In this document: positions 11,150 through 24,957 of the stretch, piece by piece | Layout: each line of letters opens with the position of its first letter | Numbering within the stretch: position 1 is the stretch's first letter | Assembly: GCF_000744655.1 (NCBI RefSeq) | Contig: NZ_JQMJ01000004.1 | Span: 3,286,001-3,350,000 of the forward strand | Source of the DNA: Streptacidiphilus rugosus AM-16 | Lineage (GTDB): Bacteria; Actinomycetota; Actinomycetes; Streptomycetales; Streptomycetaceae | Length of the DNA: 64,000 bases | Direction: 5' to 3' | The notes under the pieces: generated by a model | Told to the model about the DNA's origin: nothing | The model's input: the letters and a program-made list of their open reading frames with translations, nothing else | The model's database searches: none | Program-made: the position numbers and the translations under genes

Positions 11150-12292
11150 TCAGGGCGCCGGTATCGGCAGCGGCAGCTTCTGCAGGGCCGCGGCCATGAC
11201 CTCGGGGAACAGGTCCGGCGTGCAGGCGAAGGCGGGCGCGCCGAGGGCCGCGAGCGCGGCCGCGTGCTCCCGGTCGTAGCCGGGCGCGCCCTCGTCGCTC
11301 AGCGCGAGCAGGGCGACGAACTGCACCCCGGCCGCCTTCATCGCGGCGACCCGCTTCAGCATCTCGGTCCGGATGCCGCCCTCGTAGAGATCGCTGACCA
11401 GCACGACCACGGTGTCGGCCGGACGGGTGATCCGCGACTGGCAGTAGGCGAGCGCCCGGTTGATGTCCGTCCCGCCGCCTAGCTGGACCCCGAAGAGGAC
11501 GTCCACCGGGTCGGACAGCTCCTCGGTCAGGTCGACGACCGCGGTGTCGAAGACCACGAGCCTGGTGCTGAGGGCGCGCATCGACGCGAGGACCGCGCCG
11601 AAGACGGACGCGTGCACCACGGAGGCCGCCATCGAGCCCGACTGGTCGATGCAGAGGATGACGTCCTTCGCCACCGCCTGCTGGGCCCTGGCGTAGCCGA
11701 CGAGACGTTCCGGCACGACGGTGCGGTGATCGGGGAGGTAGTTCCCCAGATTGGCCCGGATGGTGCGGTCCCAGTCGATGTCGCGGTGGCGCGGGCGGTG
11801 CGTGCGGGCGCCGCGGTCGAGCGCGCCGCCGACGACGGAGCGGGTGCGGGTGGCGATCCGGCGCTCCAGATCGGCGACGACCTTGCGGACCACGGCGCGG
11901 GCGGTCTCCCTGGTGGTCTCCGGCAGCGCCCTGCCGAGGGAAAGAAGCGTGCCGACGAGATGGACGTCGGGCTCGACGGCCTCCAGCATCTCCGGCTCGG
12001 TCAGCAGCCGGGTGAGCCCCAGCCGCTCGATCGCGTCCTGCTGCATCAGCTGCACGACGCCGGTCGGGAAGTAGCTGCGGATGTCCCCCAGCCAACGGGC
12101 GACCTGCGGCGCGGAGCCGCCGAGACCGGCGCTGCGCGGCCCGCTGCCGGGCTGCGCAGCGTAGACGGCGGAGAGCGTGCGGTCCATCGCCGCGTCGCGG
12201 CCGGTGAGCGCCCGGCCGGTGCCGTCGGCGTCCCCGCCGAGCACCAGCCGCCAGCGGCGCAGCCGCTCGTCGTGGGCGTCGGTGGTGGTCAT
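11150..12292 (-). CDS. vWA-domain protein (YehP-like)
   Basis: 380 residues. The N-terminal half is helical and Arg-rich. The C-terminal von Willebrand A domain has an intact MIDAS: DQSGSM (DxSxS), GGGTDINRA (the Thr) and LVSDLYEGG (the Asp). These coordinate a divalent metal and normally mediate protein contacts. The ATG (12290-12292) overlaps the stop of the DUF5682 gene as ATGA, so translation is coupled. With the upstream MoxR AAA ATPase and DUF5682 genes this matches the MoxR-vWA partner arrangement of E. coli YehL-YehM-YehP (378 aa for YehP as I recall). MoxR/vWA pairs act as chaperone- or metal-insertion-like machines in studied cases; the target here is unknown. Convergent with the ATPase gene 20 bp away. 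Confidence 0.88.
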   Translation of the reverse strand: MTTTDAHDERLRRWRLVLGGDADGTGRALTGRDAAMDRTLSAVYAAQPGSGPRSAGLGGSAPQVARWLGDIRSYFPTGVVQLMQQDAIERLGLTRLLTEPEMLEAVEPDVHLVGTLLSLGRALPETTRETARAVVRKVVADLERRIATRTRSVVGGALDRGARTHRPRHRDIDWDRTIRANLGNYLPDHRTVVPERLVGYARAQQAVAKDVILCIDQSGSMAASVVHASVFGAVLASMRALSTRLVVFDTAVVDLTEELSDPVDVLFGVQLGGGTDINRALAYCQSRITRPADTVVVLVSDLYEGGIRTEMLKRVAAMKAAGVQFVALLALSDEGAPGYDREHAAALAALGAPAFACTPDLFPEVMAAALQKLPLPIPAP

Positions 12293-15044
12293 CCTGCCTC
12301 CTGCAGGCCGAGGATCAGGTGGGCGGTCGCGACCGCGGGCGCGGCCTGCGCCGGGTCGAGCCGGTCCGCGAAGCCCGGGTGCCCGGCCTCAGCGTCGTCG
12401 CGGCGGCCGCCGCGAACCAGCTCGCCGACGCTGCGGCGGACGCCGGGCTCCAGCCGGGAGAAGGTGCGGCGCAGCAGCGGCAGCACGTCGGGGAAGGCGG
12501 TGTCGGGGATCCCGGCGATCCAGGCGTCGACGAGCGCGAGCAGCCGCTGGTCGTGCACCAGCAGCACCCCGCCTCCGGCGAGGAACCCGTCCACCCACGC
12601 CGCGCCCTCCGCCGGCGGCACCCCAGGCGTGAGCACCAACCCCAACTGCCGCGCCGCCTCCCCCTCCTCCAGCCACCCGTCGTCCAACAACAGCCTCGCC
12701 GCCCTCCCCCTCACCACCCCGCCGCCAACTCCCGCTCCACCAACCCCCTCAAACACCCCACCCACCTCTCCCGCACCCCAGCCCCTCCCCCCGCTGCGCC
12801 GGGCCCAGCCCCCGGCAGGACGGCAGCAGGCGACGCCTGCGGGGCGTGGGCTGCCGCGTCGGGCAGAGCCTCCGGCTCCACCCCCTCCCATGCCTCCCGG
12901 CCGAGCCCGCCCCGCTCCGCAGGCGCGCTCTCCGCTGCGCCGGGACCAGCCCCCGGCAGGACGGCAGCAGGCGATGGCTTCGGGGCATGGGCTGCCGCGT
13001 CGGGCAGAGCCTCGGGCTCCACCGCCTCCCATGCATCCCGGCCGGGCCGGACCTGCGCCGCAGGCGCGCTCTCCGCTGCGCCGGGCCCAGCCCCCGGCAG
13101 GACGGCAGCAGGCGACGGCTTCGGGGCGTGGGCTGCCGCGTCGGGCAGAGCCTCGGGCTCCACCGCCTCCCATGCATCCCGGCCGGGCCGGACCTGCGCC
13201 GCAGGCGCGCTCTCCGCTGCGCCGGGACCAGCCCCCGGCAAAACGGCAGCAGGCGACGCCTGCGGCACGCGAGCCGCCGGAGGCGAGGGCTCGGTCGTGG
13301 GGGTTGTCGCGAGGAGGGAGATGGCTGAGTGGGTGGCGGTGAGGTGGTCGGCGAGGGCCTGGGCTGCGGTGGGGTCGAGGGAGGAGGCGGCGGAGGGGAG
13401 GCCGATGCAGATGCGGGTGGCGAGGGAGGTGGCCAGGTCGGCGAGGAGGGGGGTGGCCGTGGAGCGGACGTCGCCGTAGCGGAGGGAGCGGACCAGGGCC
13501 GGGAGGGCCTGCGCGAGGTGGGCGACGTCGGTGTCGAGCGCCGCGCGGTCGGCCAGGCAGCTGAGGACGACGGGCAGCGCCTCCGGCAGCGCGGCGAGCA
13601 GGCAGGTCTCGGCGAGGGCCGTGACCTCGCCGAGCCGCTGGGCGTCCACCGCACGGGCCGACACCCGCGCCGACGCCGCCGCCTCGACCGTCGTGCCCCA
13701 GATGCCCGCCTCGGCGACCCTGACCGCCGACTCCGGCTCCCAGGCCAGCTCCCAGCTCTCCCTGAAGGTGCCCGTGGCCCGGGTCTGCGACTCCGCCGGG
13801 ACGGCCCAGTCGATGTCCAGCAGCGCGAGCCGGTGCAGGAACCGGCTCCGCGCCGCGTCCAGTTCCTTGCGCAGGTCGAGTTCGAGGACCCGCACCCGCG
13901 TCTCCGGCTTGAGCCTGAGCTCGCGCTGCAGGCGCGACAGGTCACGCTGCAGCGGCACCGCCGGGGCGGCGTCGGGTACCTGACCGAGCGCGTCGCCGAC
14001 GATCAGCCGGTCCTCGACCAGCCGCAGCGGCACGTCCGACCCCTCGCAGAGCACCGCCCGCACCGCGTCGACCGTCTCGCTCAGGCCCGCCAGCGGCCGG
14101 CCCCGCACCGCCGCGAGCGTCTCGGCGAGCCGTACCGCCTCGATCACGTGCGCGGAGGAGACGGCGTAGTCCTCCTCCCGCAGCAGCCCGGCGACCCTGG
14201 TCAGCCAGCGCTCGACGACCTGGTGGCCGTCCGCGTCGAACAGGTGCTGGTACCAGCCCGGCGAGGCGATGCCCGCGCCGTAGCCGGTGTGCTGGGACAG
14301 CCGCCGGTGCGTCCAGGGGACCCAGGTCACCTCCACCTTGGCCTTGGGCAGCCCGCGCAGCAGCGCGTTGTCCGCGGCGACCGGGACCCGCGCCGCCAGC
14401 GCGGGAACGTGCCAGGCCCCGCAGACCACCGCGATCCGCTCGGCCCCGGCCCGCACGGCCGCGCGGATCTGCCTGCGCATGTACGCCTCGCGGCGCGCGT
14501 CCTCCTCCACCTCGGGGGCCTGCTCGCGCAGCGCCGTCATCGCCTCCGCCAGCGCCAGGAAGGGCGCCAGCGCGTCCTCGCCACCGCCGCCGGGACGCGC
14601 GTGCTCGACGACGTCGTCCCACCAGCGTTCGGCGTCCTCCTGCCCGGCTGCCCGCGCCAGCTCGCCGATCGGATCGACCCCGAGCGCCTCCCGCTCCTCG
14701 CTCTCCTCGGCGCAGGAGGCGGCCAGCGCGAAGGTGTGCGCGGCGGGCAGGTCGATGAACCTGACCGGGATCTCCCGGTCCAGGGCGTGCCGCAGCGCCA
14801 CCCACTCCGGGGAGAACGCCGCGAACGGCCAGAACGCCGCCCTGGCCGGCTCGTCGACCACATGCGCCAGCAGCGCGACCGGCGGCGCCATGTCCTTGCC
14901 TGCGGCGAGCGCCAGCAGCGCGTCCGCCTCGGGCGGGCCCTCGATCAGCACCGTGTCGGGCCGGAACTGCGTGAGCGCCGCGCCCACCGCCCGCGCCGAA
15001 CCGGGGCCGTGGTGGCGCACGCCGAGCAGCGCGATGTCCGTCAA
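12289..15044 (-). CDS. DUF5682 family protein (YehM-like), apparent frameshift near its 3' end
   Basis: The first frame runs from 15044 to a stop at 12711 and ends ...RGLVERELAAGW. The family's C-terminal part (RAARLLLDDGW, AAWVDGFLAGGGVLLVHD, FPDVLPLLRRTF, LEPGVRRSVGELV) continues in another frame to 12289. One extra C in the run at 12717-12720 would restore a single protein of ~918 aa, so this is a 1-nt deletion or a sequencing error. The N-terminal part has LLGVRHHGPGSARAV, LIEGPPEAD and VVCGAWHVPAL, a His/Glu/His pattern like EreA/TraB-type folds. Four in-frame 47-residue repeats form the linker; without them the length (~750) fits YehM. Start is TTG 15042-15044, with a GGGGG site and 10 nt after the AAA gene stop. 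The end overlaps the vWA start (ATGA). Confidence 0.82.
12785..13265. repeat. Tandem 141-bp repeat (about 3.5 copies) inside the DUF5682 gene
   Basis: The core AGCCCCCGGCAGGACGGCAG recurs at about 12807, 12948, 13089 and 13230, exactly 141 bp apart each time (the last copy reads AAAAC in place of GGAC). Each unit encodes 47 residues (SPAAVLPGAG...EALPDAAAHAP) in the frame of the gene, so copy number can change without breaking the frame. The inner units are nearly identical; the copy closest to the 3' end is most diverged. Confidence 0.95.
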
Positions 15045-15054
15045 CGCGGCCCCC

Positions 15055-16170
15055 TCAGTGCGCGGCCGCGTCGCGGCAGCTGCGGTAGAAGTCCTTCCAG
15101 TCCGCGCGCTCGCGCACGACGGACTCCAGGTACTCCTGCCACACGAGTCGGTCCGTCGCAGGGTCGCGGACCACCGCACCGAGGATGCCGGCGGCCACGT
15201 CGCCCGCCCGCAGCTCGCCGTCGCCGAAGTGCGCGGCCAGCGCCAGGCCGCTGGTGACCACGGATATCGCCTCCGCCGTGGAGAGCGTCCCCGAGGGGGA
15301 CTTGAGCTTGGTGCGGCCGTCGGCGGTGACGCCGTCGCGAAGCTCGCGGAAGACGGTGACGACGCGCTGGATCTCGGTCAGCGCGCTCGGCAGCTCCGGC
15401 AGGTCGAGCGAGCGGCCCAGCTCGGCGACGCGGCGGGCGACGATGGCGACCTCGTCGTCGAGCGTCGCGGGCAACGGCAGCACCACCGTGTTGAAGCGGC
15501 GGCGCAGGGCCGAGGAGAGCTCGTTGACGCCGCGGTCACGGTCGTTGGCGGTGGCGATCAGGTTGAAGCCGCGGACGGCCTGCACCTCCTCCCCCAACTC
15601 CGGTATCGGCAAGGTCTTCTCGGAGAGGATGGTGATCAGGGTGTCCTGCACGTCGGCCGGGATCCTGGTCAGCTCCTCGACCCTGGCCGTCTTGCCCTCC
15701 GCCATCGCGCGCAGCACCGGGCCGGCCACCAGCGCCGCCCGGCTGGGGCCCTCGGCGAGCAGCCTGGCGTAGTTCCAGCCGTAGCGGATGGCCTCCTCCG
15801 GCGTGCCGGCCGTGCCCTGCACCAGCAGCGTCGAGTCACCGCTGACCGCGGCGGCGAGGTGCTCGGAGACCCACGTCTTGGCCGTGCCCGGCACGCCGAG
15901 CAGCAGCAGCGCGCGGTCCGTCGCCAGCGTCGTGACGGCGACCTCGACGATCCGGCGCGGGCCCACGTACTTGGGGGTGATCACGGTGCCGTCGGGCAGC
16001 GTGCCGCCGAGCAGGTAGGTGGCGACGGCCCAGGGCGACAGCCGCCAACGGACCGGCCGCGGCCGGTCGTCCGCGGCGGCCAGCGCGGCCAGCTCCGCCG
16101 CGTAGGCCGCCTCCGCGTGCGGCCGGATCGGCTCCGGGGAGGACGTCGGGGTGGGTACGGACGTGGACAT
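15055..16170 (-). CDS. MoxR-type AAA+ ATPase (YehL-like)
   Basis: 371 residues, close to E. coli YehL. Walker A is GVPGTAKTW (about residue 92). A Walker-B-equivalent region reads ARVEELTRIPADVQDTLITILSE, sensor 1 is in NLIATANDRDRG, and the arginine finger region in SSALRRRFNTV. These place it in the MoxR class, which works with vWA partners on protein assembly or metal insertion. Start is ATG 16168-16170 (MSTSVPT) with GAGGAGA just upstream; a longer in-frame extension upstream is Arg-rich noise. First gene of a three-gene minus-strand operon: AAA, DUF5682 (10 nt later) and vWA (overlapping). It is divergent from the SWIM gene. Confidence 0.9.
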   Translation of the reverse strand: MSTSVPTPTSSPEPIRPHAEAAYAAELAALAAADDRPRPVRWRLSPWAVATYLLGGTLPDGTVITPKYVGPRRIVEVAVTTLATDRALLLLGVPGTAKTWVSEHLAAAVSGDSTLLVQGTAGTPEEAIRYGWNYARLLAEGPSRAALVAGPVLRAMAEGKTARVEELTRIPADVQDTLITILSEKTLPIPELGEEVQAVRGFNLIATANDRDRGVNELSSALRRRFNTVVLPLPATLDDEVAIVARRVAELGRSLDLPELPSALTEIQRVVTVFRELRDGVTADGRTKLKSPSGTLSTAEAISVVTSGLALAAHFGDGELRAGDVAAGILGAVVRDPATDRLVWQEYLESVVRERADWKDFYRSCRDAAAH

Positions 16171-16482
16171 AGGTCTCCTCAGGGAGGAAGGCACCAGGGC
16201 ATCGTCGAAGAGGCGGAGGCAGCTGTCGGAAGGGCGCCCACCGCTCGGGCGCCGCCTGCGGGTACCACTCTGCCGGGTGGGTCTGACAGATGCCGGCACT
16301 CGCGCGCCGACGGCCCTGGCCCGTCAGGTCAGGGCCGGTCCGGCCCGGCCCGGCACCCCACCGTCCCCCGGCCCTGACGCGGACTCACCCCGGCGCCACC
16401 ACCTCACCGACGTGCGCCGCGACCGACTCGCCGCCACTCGGCACCGGGAGGAGCGGCCCAACCGCGGCGCTGCCCGGCTCCG
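16171..16482. other. Divergent intergenic region between AAA ATPase and SWIM genes
   Basis: 312 bp with no plausible gene. It holds the promoter of the AAA-DUF5682-vWA operon, which I could not locate exactly; I looked for a damage-type promoter motif on the minus strand and did not find one with correct spacing. GGTACC and several GGCC-rich palindromic stretches are present. Confidence 0.4.
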
Positions 16483-16512
16483 TTGTCAGTGGTGCGCCCT
16501 AACGTCGGGGGT
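16483..16512 (+). promoter_or_regulatory. RecA-independent (PafBC-type) DNA-damage promoter of the SWIM gene
   Basis: TTGTCAGTG (16483-16491), 8 nt, then TAACGT (16500-16505): a perfect match to the actinobacterial RecA-NDp consensus tTGTCRgtg-N8-TAnnnT, the promoter class activated by PafBC in mycobacteria after DNA damage. The -10 ends 7 nt before the ATG, so the transcript is probably leaderless. Confidence 0.78.
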
Positions 16513-17850
16513 ATGGACGATCGCTGGACCGCCGAGCACGTTCTCTCGCTCTCCCCCGACGCCGCGTCACGGAAGGCCGCCGCCGAGCTCGGCACGGCGG
16601 ATCCTTGGTCCGGCACGGGGGCGAACGAGACGGCCGTGTGGGGTGCGTGCAGGGGCAGCGGGTCCCGTCCGTACCGGACGGTGGTCGCGCTGGACGGCCC
16701 CGCCTACCACTGCTCCTGCCCCAGCCGTAAGTTCCCGTGCAAGCACGCGCTCGCGCTGCTGCTCCTCCGGTCCGCCGGCGAACTCACCGGAGCGGCCGCG
16801 CCCGACTGGGCGGATGCCTGGCTGACGGCCCGTCGGCAGCACGCCGACGGCGCGGCCTCGCCGACCGCCTCCGCGACCGGTCCGGCCGACTCCCCGACGC
16901 CCGCCCCGGCGCGGGACGACGCAGCGGCGGCCGCCCGGCGACGACGACGCGAGGCGCGCGTCGCGGCCGGCGCGGCGGAGCTCCAGGCGCGCCTGGAGGA
17001 CCAGCTGCGCGGTGGTCTCGCCGACGCCCCGACCCGCGGCCAGGCGTTCTGGGAGGGCGTGGCCGCCCGTATGGTCGACGCCCAAGCTCCCGGTCTCGCG
17101 GCGCGGGCAAGGGAGTTGGGCGCGCTTCCCGCGTCCGGCGGTTCCTGGCCTTCCCGCCTGGTGGAGGAGTACGGCCTGCTGCACCTGCTGGCGGCGGGCT
17201 ACCAGCGCGTCGACGCACTGCCCGCGCCGCTGGCGGCGACGGTGAGGGCCCGCGTCGGCTTCACGGTCGACAACGCCGAGGTGCTCGGCGGCGGTCCGCT
17301 GATACGCGACCGCTGGCTGGTGCTGGGCTCCCGCGACAGCGCCGACGACCGCCTGACGACCCGCCGGCTCTGGCTCCACGGCGCCAGGTCGGGGCGGCTC
17401 GCGTTGCTGCTGTCCTTCGGACGCCCCGGCGTCGCACCGGAGTTGGCGCTCCCCACCGGGCTGGAAGTGGACGCCGATCTCGCCTTCCACCCGGCGGCGC
17501 GGCCACTGCGCGCGGCACTCGGCTCGCGCTACGCCGCGCCCGTGGCGCCGACCGCGCCCGGCCCCGTGGGCGTCACCCTGGACGCCGCGCTGACGGAGTA
17601 CGCCCGCGCGCTGGGCGAGGATCCGTGGCTGGAGTCCTGGCCCACGGTGCTCACCGGCGTGACGCCGGTCCCCACGGAGTCCGGCTGGCAGCTCGTGGAC
17701 GCCACCGGCGCGGTTCCACTGCGGACCGCCTCGCTCTGGCGTCTGGTCGCAGCCTCGGGCGGCCGCCCGGTGACGCTGTTCGGCGAGTGCGGCCACCGCG
17801 GCTTCTCCGCGGTCACCTGCTGGACCGAGGCGGGCTCGCTCCCGCTCTGA
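16513..17850 (+). CDS. SWIM zinc-finger protein (YehQ-like)
   Basis: 445 residues. The SWIM motif CxCx(n)CxH is intact in YHCSCPSRKFPCKHALALLLL at about residues 57-77 and should bind one zinc ion; SWIM domains contact DNA or protein. The rest (WPSRLVEEYGLLHLLAAGYQRV, RDRWLVLGSRDSADDRLTTRRLWLHG) matches the general pattern of bacterial SWIM proteins that occur with DUF5691, MoxR AAA and vWA genes. Start is ATG 16513 (MDDRWTAEHVL), immediately below a damage-type promoter; no Shine-Dalgarno is seen, consistent with a leaderless mRNA. Followed after a tandem-repeat-containing gap by a DUF5691 gene. The likely role is as a partner of the AAA-vWA machine; substrate unknown. Confidence 0.9.
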   Translation: MDDRWTAEHVLSLSPDAASRKAAAELGTADPWSGTGANETAVWGACRGSGSRPYRTVVALDGPAYHCSCPSRKFPCKHALALLLLRSAGELTGAAAPDWADAWLTARRQHADGAASPTASATGPADSPTPAPARDDAAAAARRRRREARVAAGAAELQARLEDQLRGGLADAPTRGQAFWEGVAARMVDAQAPGLAARARELGALPASGGSWPSRLVEEYGLLHLLAAGYQRVDALPAPLAATVRARVGFTVDNAEVLGGGPLIRDRWLVLGSRDSADDRLTTRRLWLHGARSGRLALLLSFGRPGVAPELALPTGLEVDADLAFHPAARPLRAALGSRYAAPVAPTAPGPVGVTLDAALTEYARALGEDPWLESWPTVLTGVTPVPTESGWQLVDATGAVPLRTASLWRLVAASGGRPVTLFGECGHRGFSAVTCWTEAGSLPL

Positions 17851-17870
17851 CCGGTCGCCGCCCCCACCCG

Positions 17871-17963
17871 GCACCGCAGCACCGCAGCACCGCAGCACCG
17901 CAGCACCGCAGCACCGCAGCACCGCAGCATCGCAGCACCGCAGCACCGCAGCATCGCAGCACC
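17871..17963 (+). repeat. 8-bp tandem repeat (GCACCGCA), about 11.6 copies
   Basis: The unit GCACCGCA is repeated head to tail over 93 bp; a few copies carry a single C-to-T change (GCATCGCA). It lies between the SWIM stop and the DUF5691 start. The period is not a multiple of three and the tract contains no stop in any plus frame, so it creates spurious open frames across the gap. Confidence 0.97.
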
Positions 17964-18032
17964 GACCGAGGATCCCCGGCCACGACAGGCACCGCCCGAC
18001 ACGCCCGACACCGCCCGAACGAAGGGTTCGCT

Positions 18033-19468
18033 GTGAGCGACTGGACCGACCTCGTCGAGGACGCGCTGCTCGGCACCAACCGGCGCGACAGCCCCGACCT
18101 CCTCGACCGCGCCGCCGTGCAGACCCTCGTCCGGCGCGCGGGGCTGCGGCCCGCCCCGGCCCCGCGCGTGCCCGCCCCGCTCCGCTCGACGAGCGGCCCG
18201 CCCTGCCCGGCCCGGCCGCCCGGCGGCTGGCCTCGCTGCTCGCCGAGAGCGGCAGCGAACTGCTGCCGCAGTGGCTCGGCCGAGCGCGGGACCGCGGCTT
18301 CGCCCTCCCGCCGGCCCTGGTGCCGTCCCTGCTCGACGCCGCGCGTCAGCGCAGCGACCTGCGCGGGGACGCCGTCGCGCTCGCCGGACCGCTGGGCCGC
18401 TGGCTCGCCGGAATGAACCCCGACTGGCGCTACGTGCTGCGACTGCCCTCCGCCGACGAGGACGCGCACCCGGAGGCGCGGGCGGGCGCGGACGCCGTGT
18501 GGCAGGAGGGGCTGTTCGCGGAGCGGGTCACCCACCTGACCCGGCTGCGCCGTCGCGATCCCGCCGCCGGGCTCGCCCTGCTCCGCTCGACCTGGCGCAC
18601 CGAACGCGCGGAGGACCGGCTGCTCTTCCTCGACGCCCTCCAGGAAGGTCTCGGCGCCGGCGACGAGGAGTTCCTCGAGGAGGCCCTGGCCGACCGCGCG
18701 AAGAACGTCCGTGCCACGGCCGCCGAACTGCTCTCCACGCTGCCGGGTTCGGCGCTCTCCGAGCGGATGGCGGCGCGGGCCCGCCTGGCGGTCGCCGTCG
18801 GCCCCGAGGGCGGTCTGGTCGTCGAGCCTCCGGCCGCGTGCGACACGGGGATGCAGCGTGACGGGATCGCGCCCGTCTCACCGACCGGCCGGGGCGACCG
18901 GGCCTTCTGGCTGGGCGAGGTGGTCGCGGCGACGCCGCTCTCCTGCTGGACGGAGCTGCTCGGGGCGCCCGAGCGGGCCCTGGCCCTGCCGACGGCTCCC
19001 GAGTGGGCCGACGAGCTCCATGAGGCCTGGGCGCGCGCCGCGGTGCGGCAGCATGCCGCCGACTGGGCGCGGGCCCTGCTCGCCCTGCACCAGGGCCGCG
19101 GCACCAGCGGGACGCAGTCCCGGCTGCTCTCCGTCCTGCCGTCGGCGGAGCGGGCGGCGTGGACGGCGCGCTTCGTGCTGGAGCAGGGGCTGGCGGAGGC
19201 TTTCCAACTCCTGGTCACCTGCCCGCCGCCCTGGTCCGAGGAGCTCGCCGAGGCCGTCCTGGACGCGCTCGCGAGGGCGGCGGCCGCCGGGGCCTACCCG
19301 TGGAGCCACAGCGGCGTGCTGGGCGTGGCCGAGCGCTCCCTGCCGTTCGCGGCAGCCGCACGCGCGGACGCGTTGGCCGAGGCGTCCTCCTCGGCCTGGG
19401 CGGAGGTGTTCACCCGGCTCGCGACGACGCTGCGCACCCGCTCCGCGATGCTGGCGGAACTCGCCTGA
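18033..19468 (+). CDS. DUF5691 family protein, apparent frameshift near codon 50
   Basis: The start GTG 18033 gives the family's usual beginning MSDWTDLVEDALLGTNRR with a Leu-rich helical N-terminus, but that frame runs off into Arg/Ser-rich noise after about residue 50. A frame one base different is coding from about 18185 (LDERPALPGPAARRLASLL, ESGSELLPQWLG, LNPDWR-like MNPDWRYVLRL) to the stop at 19468. Adding one base near 18183-18184 would give a continuous protein of ~478 aa. So this copy is either inactivated by a 1-nt deletion or contains a sequencing error. DUF5691 proteins are all-helical partners of SWIM proteins in these clusters; their function is unknown. The Shine-Dalgarno region is CGAACGAAGGG, about 6 nt upstream. 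Confidence 0.82.
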
Positions 19469-22349: not shown

Positions 22350-24926
22350 CTACAGCTTCTCGACGGGCGCGTAGCGCAGCAGCAGCTGCTTGGTGCCCTC
22401 GCCGCCGAAGTCGATCGTCGCCTTGGCGTCGTCCGCCGGACCCGAGACGGACACGACGGTGCCCAGCCCGAAGCGGTCGTGGGTGACCCGGTCCCCGACG
22501 GCCAGCGTGACCGTGGGGCGGTCCTTCATCCGGCCCGCGTTCTTGCCCCAGCCCGCCGCCGGGGACGAGCGCCGCGCGGCGCCGCCGGACCCCGCAGAGC
22601 CGGACCGTGAGCCGAAGCCGGACGGCACCGCCGCAGCGGCCGAGCGCTTCTCGTCCACCAGCGTCGGCGGGATCTCCTCCAGGAAGCGGGAGGCCGGGTT
22701 GTAGGACGGCTGGCCCCAGGCGCTGCGCAGCACCGCGCGGGAGAGGTAGAGCCGCTCCCGCGCCCGCGTCAGACCGACGTAGGCGAGGCGGCGCTCCTCC
22801 TCGAGCTCCTTGGCGTTGCTCATCGCCCGCATGTGCGGGAAGACGCCGTCCTCCATGCCGGTCAGGAAGACGACGGGGAACTCCAGGCCCTTGGCCGTGT
22901 GCAGGGTCATCAGCGTGATGACCCCGCGGGGCTCGCCGCCCTCGCCCTCCTCGTCGGGAATCTGGTCCGAATCGGCCACCAGCGCCACCCGCTCCAGGAA
23001 GCCGGGCAGCCCCGGCTGCGTCAGCGGCTCGCCGTCCGGGCCCTCGACGGGCTCCTCCTGCTCGAACTCCAGCGCCACGGCCGCGAGTTCCTGCAGGTTC
23101 TCCACGCGCGTCTCGTCCTGCGGGTCCGTCGACGCCTGGAGTTCGGCCAGATAGCCGGTCTCCTCCAGCACTGCCTCCAGGACGGCGGCGGGCCCTGCAC
23201 CCGACTCCACCACACCGCGCAGCTTCGCCATCAAGTCGTTGAACTTCTTCACCGCATTGGCCGAGCGCGCGGCCATGCCGTACGCCTCGTCCACGCGCAG
23301 CAGCGCCTGCGGGAAGGAGATCCGCTCGCGAGAGGCCAGCGCCTCGATCATCGCCTCGGCCCGGTCCCCGATGCCGCGCTTGGGCACGTTGAGGATCCGG
23401 CGCAGCGGCACCGCGTCCTCGGGGTTGGCCAGCACCCGGAGATAGGCCAGGACGTCCCTGACCTCCCTGCGCTCGTAGAAGCGGACACCGCCGACGACCT
23501 TGTACGGCAGGCCGACCCGGATGAAGACCTCTTCGAAGACACGGGACTGCGCGTTGGTGCGGTAGAAGACCGCGATGTCACCGGGCTTGGCGTCGCCCCC
23601 GTCGCCGAGCCGGTCGATCTCGTCGGCGATGAACTGCGCCTCGCCGTGCTCGTCGTCCGCGACGTAGGAGGTGATCCTGGTGCCCTCGGCGCCGGCCGTC
23701 CACAGGTTCTTCTTGCGGCGGTTGCTGTTGCGCTCGATGACGGAGTTGGCGGCGCTGAGGATCGTCTGCGTGGAGCGGTAGTTCTGCTCCAGCAGGATCG
23801 TGGTCGCGTTCGGGTAGTCCTCCTCGAAGTCGAGGATGTTGCGGATCGTCGCGCCCCGGAAGGCGTAGATCGACTGGTCCGCGTCACCGACGACGCAGAG
23901 CTCGGCCGGCGGGATCTGCGCCAGCCCGGCGGCGGCCGGGTTCACGAACTCGCCGTCCGCCGTCATCTTCGGCGCCTGGCCGCTCGCGCCGCCGCTCAGC
24001 TCCCGCACCAGCATGTACTGGGCGTGGTTGGTGTCCTGGTACTCGTCGACCAGGATGTGCCGGAAACGGCGGCGGTAGTGCTCGGCGGCGTCGGGGAAGG
24101 CCTGGAGCAGGTTGACCGTCGTCATGATGATGTCGTCGAAGTCCAGCGCGTTGGCCTCGCGCAGGCGGCGCTGGTAGAGCGCGTAGGCCTCGGCCAGCTT
24201 GCGCTCCATCGGGTTGGCCGCCTGGCCGGCGTAGGTCTCCTCGTCGACGAGCTCGTTCTTGAGGTTGGAGACCTTGGCGGTGAAGGACTTCGGCGGGAAC
24301 TGCTTCGGGTCCAGGTCGAGGTCGCGGCAGACGAGCGCCATCAGGCGCTGCGAGTCGGCTGCGTCGTAGATCGAGAAGCTGGAGGTGAAGCCGAGCCGCT
24401 TGCTCTCGCGGCGCAGGATGCGGACGCAGGCGCTGTGGAAGGTGGACACCCACATCGCCTTGGCCCTCGGCCCCACCAGCGCCTCGACGCGCTCGCGCAT
24501 CTCGCCGGCGGCCTTGTTGGTGAAGGTGATCGCCAGGATCTCGCCCGGCTGCACGCCGCGGGCGGCGAGCAGGTAGGCGATGCGGTGGGTGAGCACACGC
24601 GTCTTGCCCGAACCGGCGCCGGCCACGATGAGCAGCGGGGAGCCGGCGTGCACGACGGCCTCGCGCTGTTGCGGGTTCATCCCGTCCAGCAGCGTCTCCG
24701 GGTCGGCGACCGGGTGCGCGGCGCCGTTGCGGTAGTACGAGCCGGGGACCGGCTCGGCCGGGTCGAACGACTGGAAGAGATCCGCCGGGATCTCCTCCTC
24801 GTACGGTGCGTCGTCATACCCTGCCTCGTGGGCTCCGGCGTCGTCGTACGCGCCGTCGGCCGGGGGCGGCACCGTCACGGGGACGTCCAGGCCGGGCAGG
24901 GGGATGTCGTCAAAGAGGCTGCTCAT
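22350..24926 (-). CDS. pcrA: ATP-dependent DNA helicase PcrA/UvrD type
   Basis: 858 residues, superfamily 1A helicase. Motifs seen: Q-motif-like LNPQQREAVV, Walker A GAGSGKTRVL, FTNKAAGEMRERV (Ia), VDEYQDTNHAQY (Walker B), GDADQSIYAFRGA (III), LEQNYRST (IV), LMTLHTAKGLEFPVVFLTG (V) and YVGLTRARERL (VI), plus a C-terminal Tudor-like KDRPTVTLAVGDRVTHDRFGLGTV segment seen in PcrA. Unwinds DNA in repair and collision of replication with transcription. Start ATG 24926 (MSSLFDD). Acidic N-terminal extension of ~90 residues. A damage-type promoter lies 9 nt upstream, predicting a leaderless, DNA-damage-inducible transcript. It follows the phosphatase gene on the same strand. Confidence 0.96.
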   Translation of the reverse strand: MSSLFDDIPLPGLDVPVTVPPPADGAYDDAGAHEAGYDDAPYEEEIPADLFQSFDPAEPVPGSYYRNGAAHPVADPETLLDGMNPQQREAVVHAGSPLLIVAGAGSGKTRVLTHRIAYLLAARGVQPGEILAITFTNKAAGEMRERVEALVGPRAKAMWVSTFHSACVRILRRESKRLGFTSSFSIYDAADSQRLMALVCRDLDLDPKQFPPKSFTAKVSNLKNELVDEETYAGQAANPMERKLAEAYALYQRRLREANALDFDDIIMTTVNLLQAFPDAAEHYRRRFRHILVDEYQDTNHAQYMLVRELSGGASGQAPKMTADGEFVNPAAAGLAQIPPAELCVVGDADQSIYAFRGATIRNILDFEEDYPNATTILLEQNYRSTQTILSAANSVIERNSNRRKKNLWTAGAEGTRITSYVADDEHGEAQFIADEIDRLGDGGDAKPGDIAVFYRTNAQSRVFEEVFIRVGLPYKVVGGVRFYERREVRDVLAYLRVLANPEDAVPLRRILNVPKRGIGDRAEAMIEALASRERISFPQALLRVDEAYGMAARSANAVKKFNDLMAKLRGVVESGAGPAAVLEAVLEETGYLAELQASTDPQDETRVENLQELAAVALEFEQEEPVEGPDGEPLTQPGLPGFLERVALVADSDQIPDEEGEGGEPRGVITLMTLHTAKGLEFPVVFLTGMEDGVFPHMRAMSNAKELEEERRLAYVGLTRARERLYLSRAVLRSAWGQPSYNPASRFLEEIPPTLVDEKRSAAAAVPSGFGSRSGSAGSGGAARRSSPAAGWGKNAGRMKDRPTVTLAVGDRVTHDRFGLGTVVSVSGPADDAKATIDFGGEGTKQLLLRYAPVEKL

Positions 24927-24934
24927 CACCCCCG

Positions 24935-24957
24935 AGTCTAGGCCGCCCGACCGACAG
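24935..24957 (-). promoter_or_regulatory. RecA-independent DNA-damage promoter upstream of pcrA
   Basis: On the minus strand CTGTCGGTC (24957-24949), 8 nt, TAGACT (24940-24935), then 8 nt to the ATG. This matches tTGTCRgtg-N8-TAnnnT at the TGTCRgt core, exact spacing and TAnnnT, missing the first T and last G. The -10/start segment (TAGACTCGGGGGTGATG) is nearly identical to that of the SWIM gene promoter (TAACGTCGGGGGTATG). Confidence 0.65.

Follow-up and report, generated by a model that had tools for sequence, protein, structure and literature searches.

A probable RecA-NDp promoter in front of the SWIM gene of a five-gene cassette in Streptacidiphilus rugosus and its relatives

Five neighbouring genes of Streptacidiphilus rugosus AM-16 encode a SWIM zinc-finger protein, a DUF5691 protein, a MoxR-type AAA+ ATPase, a DUF5682 protein and a VWA/CoxE-like protein, and a few nucleotides in front of the SWIM gene lies a sequence resembling the RecA-NDp promoters of the actinobacterial DNA-damage response. 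Is this sequence a damage promoter, and what would it control? We address these questions in a 64,000-nt stretch of contig NZ_JQMJ01000004.1 (positions 3,286,001 to 3,350,000 of the forward strand, assembly GCF_000744655.1), called the window below, and in orthologous loci of other genomes. Features of the window are collected in Table 1. Articles marked 'in part' are cited from part of their text.

Table 1. Promoter elements and cassette genes in the window
Feature	Coordinates	Strand	Remarks
Upstream element TTGTCAGTG (-26 element in the PafBC literature)	16483..16491	+	Exact consensus match
Spacer GTGCGCCC, 8 nt	16492..16499	+	Weakly conserved
-10 hexamer TAACGT	16500..16505	+	T1, A2 and T6 invariant in 76/76 orthologues
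Gap CGGGGGT, 7 nt, from -10 to start codon	16506..16512	+	ATG at 16513
SWIM zinc-finger gene, 445 aa, ddrT-like	16513..17850	+	PF04434, E 5e-7, residues 58-84
DUF5691 gene, ddrU-like, frameshifted	18033..19468	+	PF18944, E 1e-124 on downstream frame
Degenerate divergent RecA-NDp-like box CTGTCAGAC-N8-CAGAGT	16267..16289	-	3 mismatches, weak on its own
MoxR-type AAA+ ATPase gene (AAA_5)	15055..16170	-	PF07728, E 5e-37; ATG 16170 after GAGGAGA
DUF5682 gene, two frames	12289..15179	-	PF18934 positions 1-570 and 591-727 on two ORFs
VWA/CoxE-like gene, ddrX-like	11150..12292	-	PF05762, E 3e-57

The RecA-NDp consensus used here is tTGTCRgtg-N8-TAnnnT, as printed in PMC5656591 (in part). All of its defined positions are satisfied at 16483-16505 on the forward strand, comprising the TTGTCRGTG element, the 8-nt spacer and the TAnnnT -10. 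A reading of the sequence made beforehand, called the sequence-only reading here, had claimed a perfect PafBC-type match in front of the SWIM gene with the -10 sitting 7 nt from the ATG, and on both points it was right. At up to two mismatches this is the sole match in the window, itself with no mismatch, and shuffled windows contain 0.42 such matches on average. From base composition, the expected number of exact matches is 2.6e-4 for the window and 0.037 for the genome, in which 11 were found.

The element is conserved together with the gene. All 14 genomes searched in the genus have a SWIM orthologue, as do 57 of 61 drawn from the family and 56 of 60 drawn from the order; these make up 95 distinct Streptomycetaceae genomes and 12 from a second family of the order (f3). 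Box distances were taken with start codons and reading frame; the match to the query can begin inside longer N-termini. Absence of the motif upstream of orthologues in related streptomycetes had been named beforehand as the outcome that would count against the claim, and the motif, at up to two mismatches, is present in all 95 of the family (66 boxes are exact, 16 have one mismatch and 13 have two, many of the last reading TTGTCRGAC). It is likewise present in 12 of 12 orthologues of f3. The box ends 6-7 nt before an in-frame ATG in 94 of the 95, the gap from box to ATG being 7 nt in 75 of the 76 tabulated orthologues, 6 nt in one, and 7 nt in the further 19. The exception is G095 (L105), whose box is exact and is followed after 7 nt by an ATG that is out of frame; its SWIM frame begins about 112 nt downstream of the box, so SWIM is not leaderless in that genome.

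Across the 76 tabulated orthologues, TGTC (element positions 2-5), G (position 7) and the TA and last T of the -10 are invariant, and the flanks of the box carry near zero bits. Among 224 control windows taken from these loci, none comes within two mismatches of the consensus. The promoter of S. jiangxiensis (L060) is identical to that of L058, a genome of the window's genus. Short motifs do recur in a GC-rich genome, as the 0.42 matches expected per window at two mismatches indicate; given an exact match, a position held in 94 of 95 orthologues and the empty control windows, the probability that the match arose by chance is negligible. Orthologue conservation and the control windows together rule out a chance origin of the box.

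Accidental resemblance of another kind is conceivable, in that an ordinary housekeeping promoter, or one of another sigma factor, might look like RecA-NDp. By itself TAACGT makes a fair -10, and many actinobacterial genes are leaderless. However, in the window the region 16-19 nt before the -10 contains no -35-like hexamer, the distance of 11 nt from TTGTCA to the -10 is unsuited to sigma70, and the 76 orthologues have no conserved columns at the -35 region whereas their TGTC-G block is invariant; we consider such a promoter very unlikely. Recognition sites of other regulators were also sought in the intergenic region of the window. A sigma70 -35 has no good match there, an RDRM site is matched with five mismatches at best, and, for regulation by LexA/SOS, the best match has three mismatches to GAACNNNNGTTC, which we take to be the LexA consensus.

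Graded jointly with the whole of the explanation preferred here, the stretch 16483-16505 is very probably a RecA-NDp promoter, the kind at which the DNA-damage activator PafBC works.

Beyond the order the box fades. Among 15 orthologues (12 together with those of Actinomadura, Nonomuraea and Nocardia), five have it at the start with up to two mismatches (G167, G208, G150, G182 and Nonomuraea), and four have it in the same place with three or four mismatches (G218, G151, G183 and Actinomadura). Nocardia has a two-mismatch box about 28 nt upstream of its SWIM start. A box at the start was not found in the remaining five of the 15: G144 and G157 clearly lack it, and G130, G197 and G215, where the orthologue matches begin at residues 109-130, have no located start.

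The element has company elsewhere in the genome. For the regulon we used the pattern TGTCRGTG-N8-TANNNT followed by ATG or GTG within 4-9 nt. The genome contains it 32 times, at 30 different places, and the reversed pattern 0 times. Besides the SWIM box, 26 start-proximal boxes are followed by an open frame of 60 codons or more, and a family scan covered 24 of these 26 ORFs, leaving out L040 and L155. Repair and replication genes make up 12 of the 26: those for RecA, RadA, UvrB, DnaX, HolA, SbcD, RuvC and RarA/MgsA, an exonuclease III-type endonuclease, an AlkZ-like glycosylase, a PD-(D/E)XK nuclease and a YoaA/DinG-type helicase, the last counted with a score below the cut-off of its model. 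Among the products of the other box-headed ORFs are a pentapeptide-repeat protein, two alpha/beta hydrolases, a methyltransferase and a SUKH protein, and some have no family assignment. The M. smegmatis regulon is reportedly listed by Mueller et al. in Cell Reports in 2018.

Two of the boxes may be described separately. The pentapeptide-repeat gene (L039:1753-2472, reverse strand) stands directly behind its RecA-NDp box, and its product gives weak Qnr-type matches, well below the cut-offs. In the window itself a second RecA-NDp-like promoter, CTGTCGGTC-N8-TAGACT, occupies 24935-24957 on the reverse strand. It precedes pcrA (TIGR01073, above cut-off; ATG at 24926) by 8 nt and lies about 8.5 kb from the SWIM box; in four genomes of genus g9 an exact box is similarly spaced and oriented relative to the SWIM box.

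Genus g9 is probably Streptomyces, and each of 10 of its 10 genomes contains 13-46 matches to the regulon pattern versus 0-1 for the reversed pattern. In a study of S. venezuelae, an initial search had suggested that the PafBC motif of M. smegmatis is not conserved there (PMC9380542, in part). That report is in tension with the g9 counts and is not disproved by them. The same LexA study had left open whether there is a PafBC-type regulon in streptomycetes (PMC9380542, in part); the present counts address this point, and such motif data indicate that the regulon exists. In S. coelicolor, SCO6735 is UV-induced behind a RecA-NDp box (PMC5087735, in part).

With respect to the regulator, a pafA gene (NCBIfam TIGR03686, 768 bits, above cut-off) adjoins two adjacent WYL genes on the same strand. 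NCBIfam gave no name to the two WYL proteins beside pafA, and we take their genes as pafB and pafC from the WYL domain, the pairing and the position. It is unlikely, in our estimation, that the damage promoter is read in this family by ClgR or by another WYL activator in place of PafBC: the best ClgR-type site in the intergenic region, by a consensus that we presume, has two mismatches and is no good match, pafA is present with its adjacent WYL pair, and 16 of 16 genomes tested, the box-less G144 and G157 among them, have a PafB homologue. Moreover, the motif is the one tied to PafBC in the cited work (in part). What speaks for the alternative is that an earlier proposal assigned the same P1 promoter to ClgR, whose recognition of P1 is cited in PMC5656591 (in part), that WYL matches in the genome number seven, and that PafBC dependence of the motif has been established in mycobacteria, Streptomyces being left open in PMC9380542 (in part).

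The PafBC reading has a mechanism that can be borrowed from mycobacterial studies, in which single-stranded DNA binds the WYL domains of PafBC, and PafBC reprogrammes the sigma-A holoenzyme at promoters with a -26 element (PMC11804915, PMC8223512 and PMC6789036, all in part). By analogy, damage in the present organism would give rise to single-stranded DNA and this would activate PafBC, which would let the housekeeping RNA polymerase use TTGTCAGTG and TAACGT. These two elements lie too near each other for an ordinary -35/-10 pair.

Transcription would then start at or beside the A of the SWIM ATG, giving a leaderless SWIM mRNA; a start 6-8 nt past the -10, if so, leaves no room for a leader with a Shine-Dalgarno site. 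In other RecA-NDp regulon genes of the genome the distance from box to start is 5-9 nt, so the leaderless placement is a feature of the regulon and goes beyond the SWIM gene alone. The sequence-only reading had proposed a PafBC-type promoter placed for a leaderless transcript. Orthologue conservation and regulon company strongly support that placement; damage induction, PafBC dependence and the 5' end of the SWIM transcript are what we infer by analogy.

As to what the promoter would control, Pfam matched all five families of the cassette within 11150-19468. The pair of SWIM and DUF5691 genes singled out earlier does lie downstream of the box, but it is part of this larger cassette, and its DUF5691 gene is frameshifted in the assembly. 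The remaining three genes and the divergent box had escaped the sequence-only reading. DUF5691 begins at 18033 in one frame and goes on in another from about 18188, which places a frameshift near 18183-18188 in the assembly. DUF5682 is broken by a frameshift (12711-13173) at a 141-bp tandem repeat (12791-13265). Each break may be either a sequencing error or true decay. Between SWIM and DUF5691, at 17871-17964, an 8-bp unit is repeated 11.8 times.

The SWIM finger, C67-x-C69-x6-C76-x-H78 (CxC-x6-CxH), is kept in four of four aligned sequences. G015, G086 and G079 (L219, L220 and L221) keep the box, the start and the C-terminal domain, and the finger is absent from the frame; by their reading frames these three genomes speak against a strict need for the SWIM finger. 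Structure prediction for SWIM, from a 4-sequence alignment, gave no usable fold (mean pLDDT 43.9). For DUF5691 (the protein of L059) the mean was 70.3 and the model is all helices. It matches HEAT/ARM-type repeat proteins (best Z 9.9, rmsd 7.8), and these matches of a helical repeat may reflect a common arrangement only. Foldseek returned no match to the DUF5691 model at E <=0.001, and neither the SWIM nor the DUF5691 alignment had a sequence relative in the PDB at E 0.01.

The cassette is split and divergent in the window, not a single co-directional operon, and this arrangement is usual in the family. In 54 of 56 Streptomycetaceae loci with enough upstream sequence, MoxR is found upstream and points the other way; the other two have no MoxR hit. 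In contrast, the genes are co-directional over the stretch fetched in 20 of 20 loci of other actinobacterial families, two of these stretches ending inside MoxR. In Streptomycetaceae, a co-directional operon would have been split into two divergent arms.

The MoxR arm often has a box of its own. Within 350 nt, a second RecA-NDp-like box (up to two mismatches) faces MoxR in 47 of the 56 loci, with the pattern TTGTCAG(TG or AC)-N6-TGCAnnGT, as compared with 10 of 280 control windows that match the looser second-box pattern. Nine of the 56 have no good second box within 350 nt. In all 47 loci the -10 on the MoxR side reads CAnnGT behind a TG, with C and never T at its first position; it may be a distinct promoter variant. 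The divergent box of the window lies about 97 nt before the MoxR ATG, and MoxR has the Shine-Dalgarno-like GAGGAGA. We infer that the second box kept damage control on both arms after the split; it would hold the MoxR arm in the damage response at most loci. In loci L044-L058 of genus g1, that of the window, the TTGTCAGTG and TTGTCRGAC forms swap arms between two groups: SWIM has the consensus form and MoxR the AC form in one, and the reverse holds in the other.

Compared with the known RecA-NDp/PafBC promoters of mycobacteria and streptomycetes, such as recA P1 and that of SCO6735, the SWIM promoter has the same consensus and spacing and is shared in the same way with recA and repair genes. 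It differs in its target, the SWIM/DUF5691 arm, in standing almost invariably 7 nt from the start codon and in the second divergent box, with the unusual CAnnGT -10, that most loci have.

The cassette is not confined to actinobacteria. All five families occur in one direction in Rhizobium (two records), Deinococcus taeanensis, Actinomadura, Nocardia, Nonomuraea and Methylobacterium. SWIM and DUF5691 share a single long annotated gene in Hymenobacter sp. HDW8; for H. radiodurans and Methylosinus, the annotation of the stretch shows no VWA gene. The ddrTUVWX genes of D. deserti encode a SWIM protein first and a VWA CoxE-like protein last, are radiation-induced and IrrE-dependent (SWIM more than 10-fold and three others more than 5-fold), have an RDRM in each of the four species listed for them and are described as of unknown function (PMC5552922, in part). 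The order in D. taeanensis is SWIM-DUF5691-AAA-DUF5682-VWA, and the names ddrU, V and W were matched via this annotated locus, not via the D. deserti sequence. By the RDRM consensus of PMC8533742 (in part), D. taeanensis has an RDRM-like site with two mismatches 21-35 nt upstream of the SWIM start, the only one at up to two mismatches in 19.3 kb.

The Streptomycetaceae cassette thus resembles ddrTUVWX (Deide_18730 to Deide_18690) in having SWIM first and VWA/CoxE-like last and in a damage regulation, putative in Streptomycetaceae, that does not depend on SOS. The two differ in regulator, which in Deinococcus is the IrrE/DdrO repressor system with RDRM and here would be a PafBC-type activator promoter, and in arrangement, one co-directional operon as against two divergent arms. 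No recognised damage box was found at six alphaproteobacterial and Hymenobacter loci. With the alphaproteobacterial SOS box consensus GTTC-N7-GTTC, no exact match lies upstream of the Rhizobium, Methylosinus and Methylobacterium copies, the best having two mismatches; in the two Hymenobacter loci a damage box was likewise not found.

The sequence-only reading knew of no earlier description of a link between these genes and the damage regulon. For actinobacteria this stands within the literature searched, since no paper linking actinobacterial SWIM/DUF5691 with RecA-NDp or PafBC was found in the open-licence literature. It does not stand in general: the homologous cassette is the known radiation-induced ddrTUVWX (PMC5552922, in part), and RecA-NDp was already known in Streptomyces (PMC5087735, in part).

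SWIM and DUF5691 would accordingly form one arm of a cassette SWIM-DUF5691-MoxR-DUF5682-VWA that is equivalent to ddrTUVWX. It shares a MoxR-family ATPase and a VWA partner with RavA-ViaA and other MoxR AAA+/VWA pairs, which have been described as chaperone-like (PMC3893208, in part). Here SWIM, DUF5691 and DUF5682 come as extra subunits and there is a damage-type promoter. We suggest, tentatively and with the balance somewhat against it, that the MoxR AAA+ ATPase, VWA and DUF5682 form a remodelling machine, and that SWIM and DUF5691, the latter a probable helical-repeat scaffold, recognise damaged nucleoprotein so that protein-DNA complexes are cleared or rebuilt. SWIM would serve as the recognition subunit of this damage-induced AAA+ machine.

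The cassette could instead be an anti-phage or conflict system in which damage induction is a by-product. MoxR-VWA pairs occur in conflict systems, from which the weakly matching bpMoxR takes its name, and plasmids in several phyla carry the cassette. Yet PADLOC matched no model to any of six proteins, a presence in 57 of 61 genomes of the family sample and 56 of 60 of the order sample is more core-like than is usual for defence genes, and the cassette sits in a repair-dominated regulon in two phyla. We regard a conflict system as rather improbable.

The repair-linked reading can be put more broadly, namely that the cassette is an SOS-independent genome-maintenance machine, brought under damage control in two phyla by unrelated regulators (PafBC and IrrE/DdrO), with both Streptomycetaceae arms kept in that control by the second box. 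We consider the chances of this broader proposal to be evenly balanced. Five families of unknown joint function thereby gain a concrete damage-response hypothesis, which is supported in two phyla and is testable with standard Streptomyces genetics.
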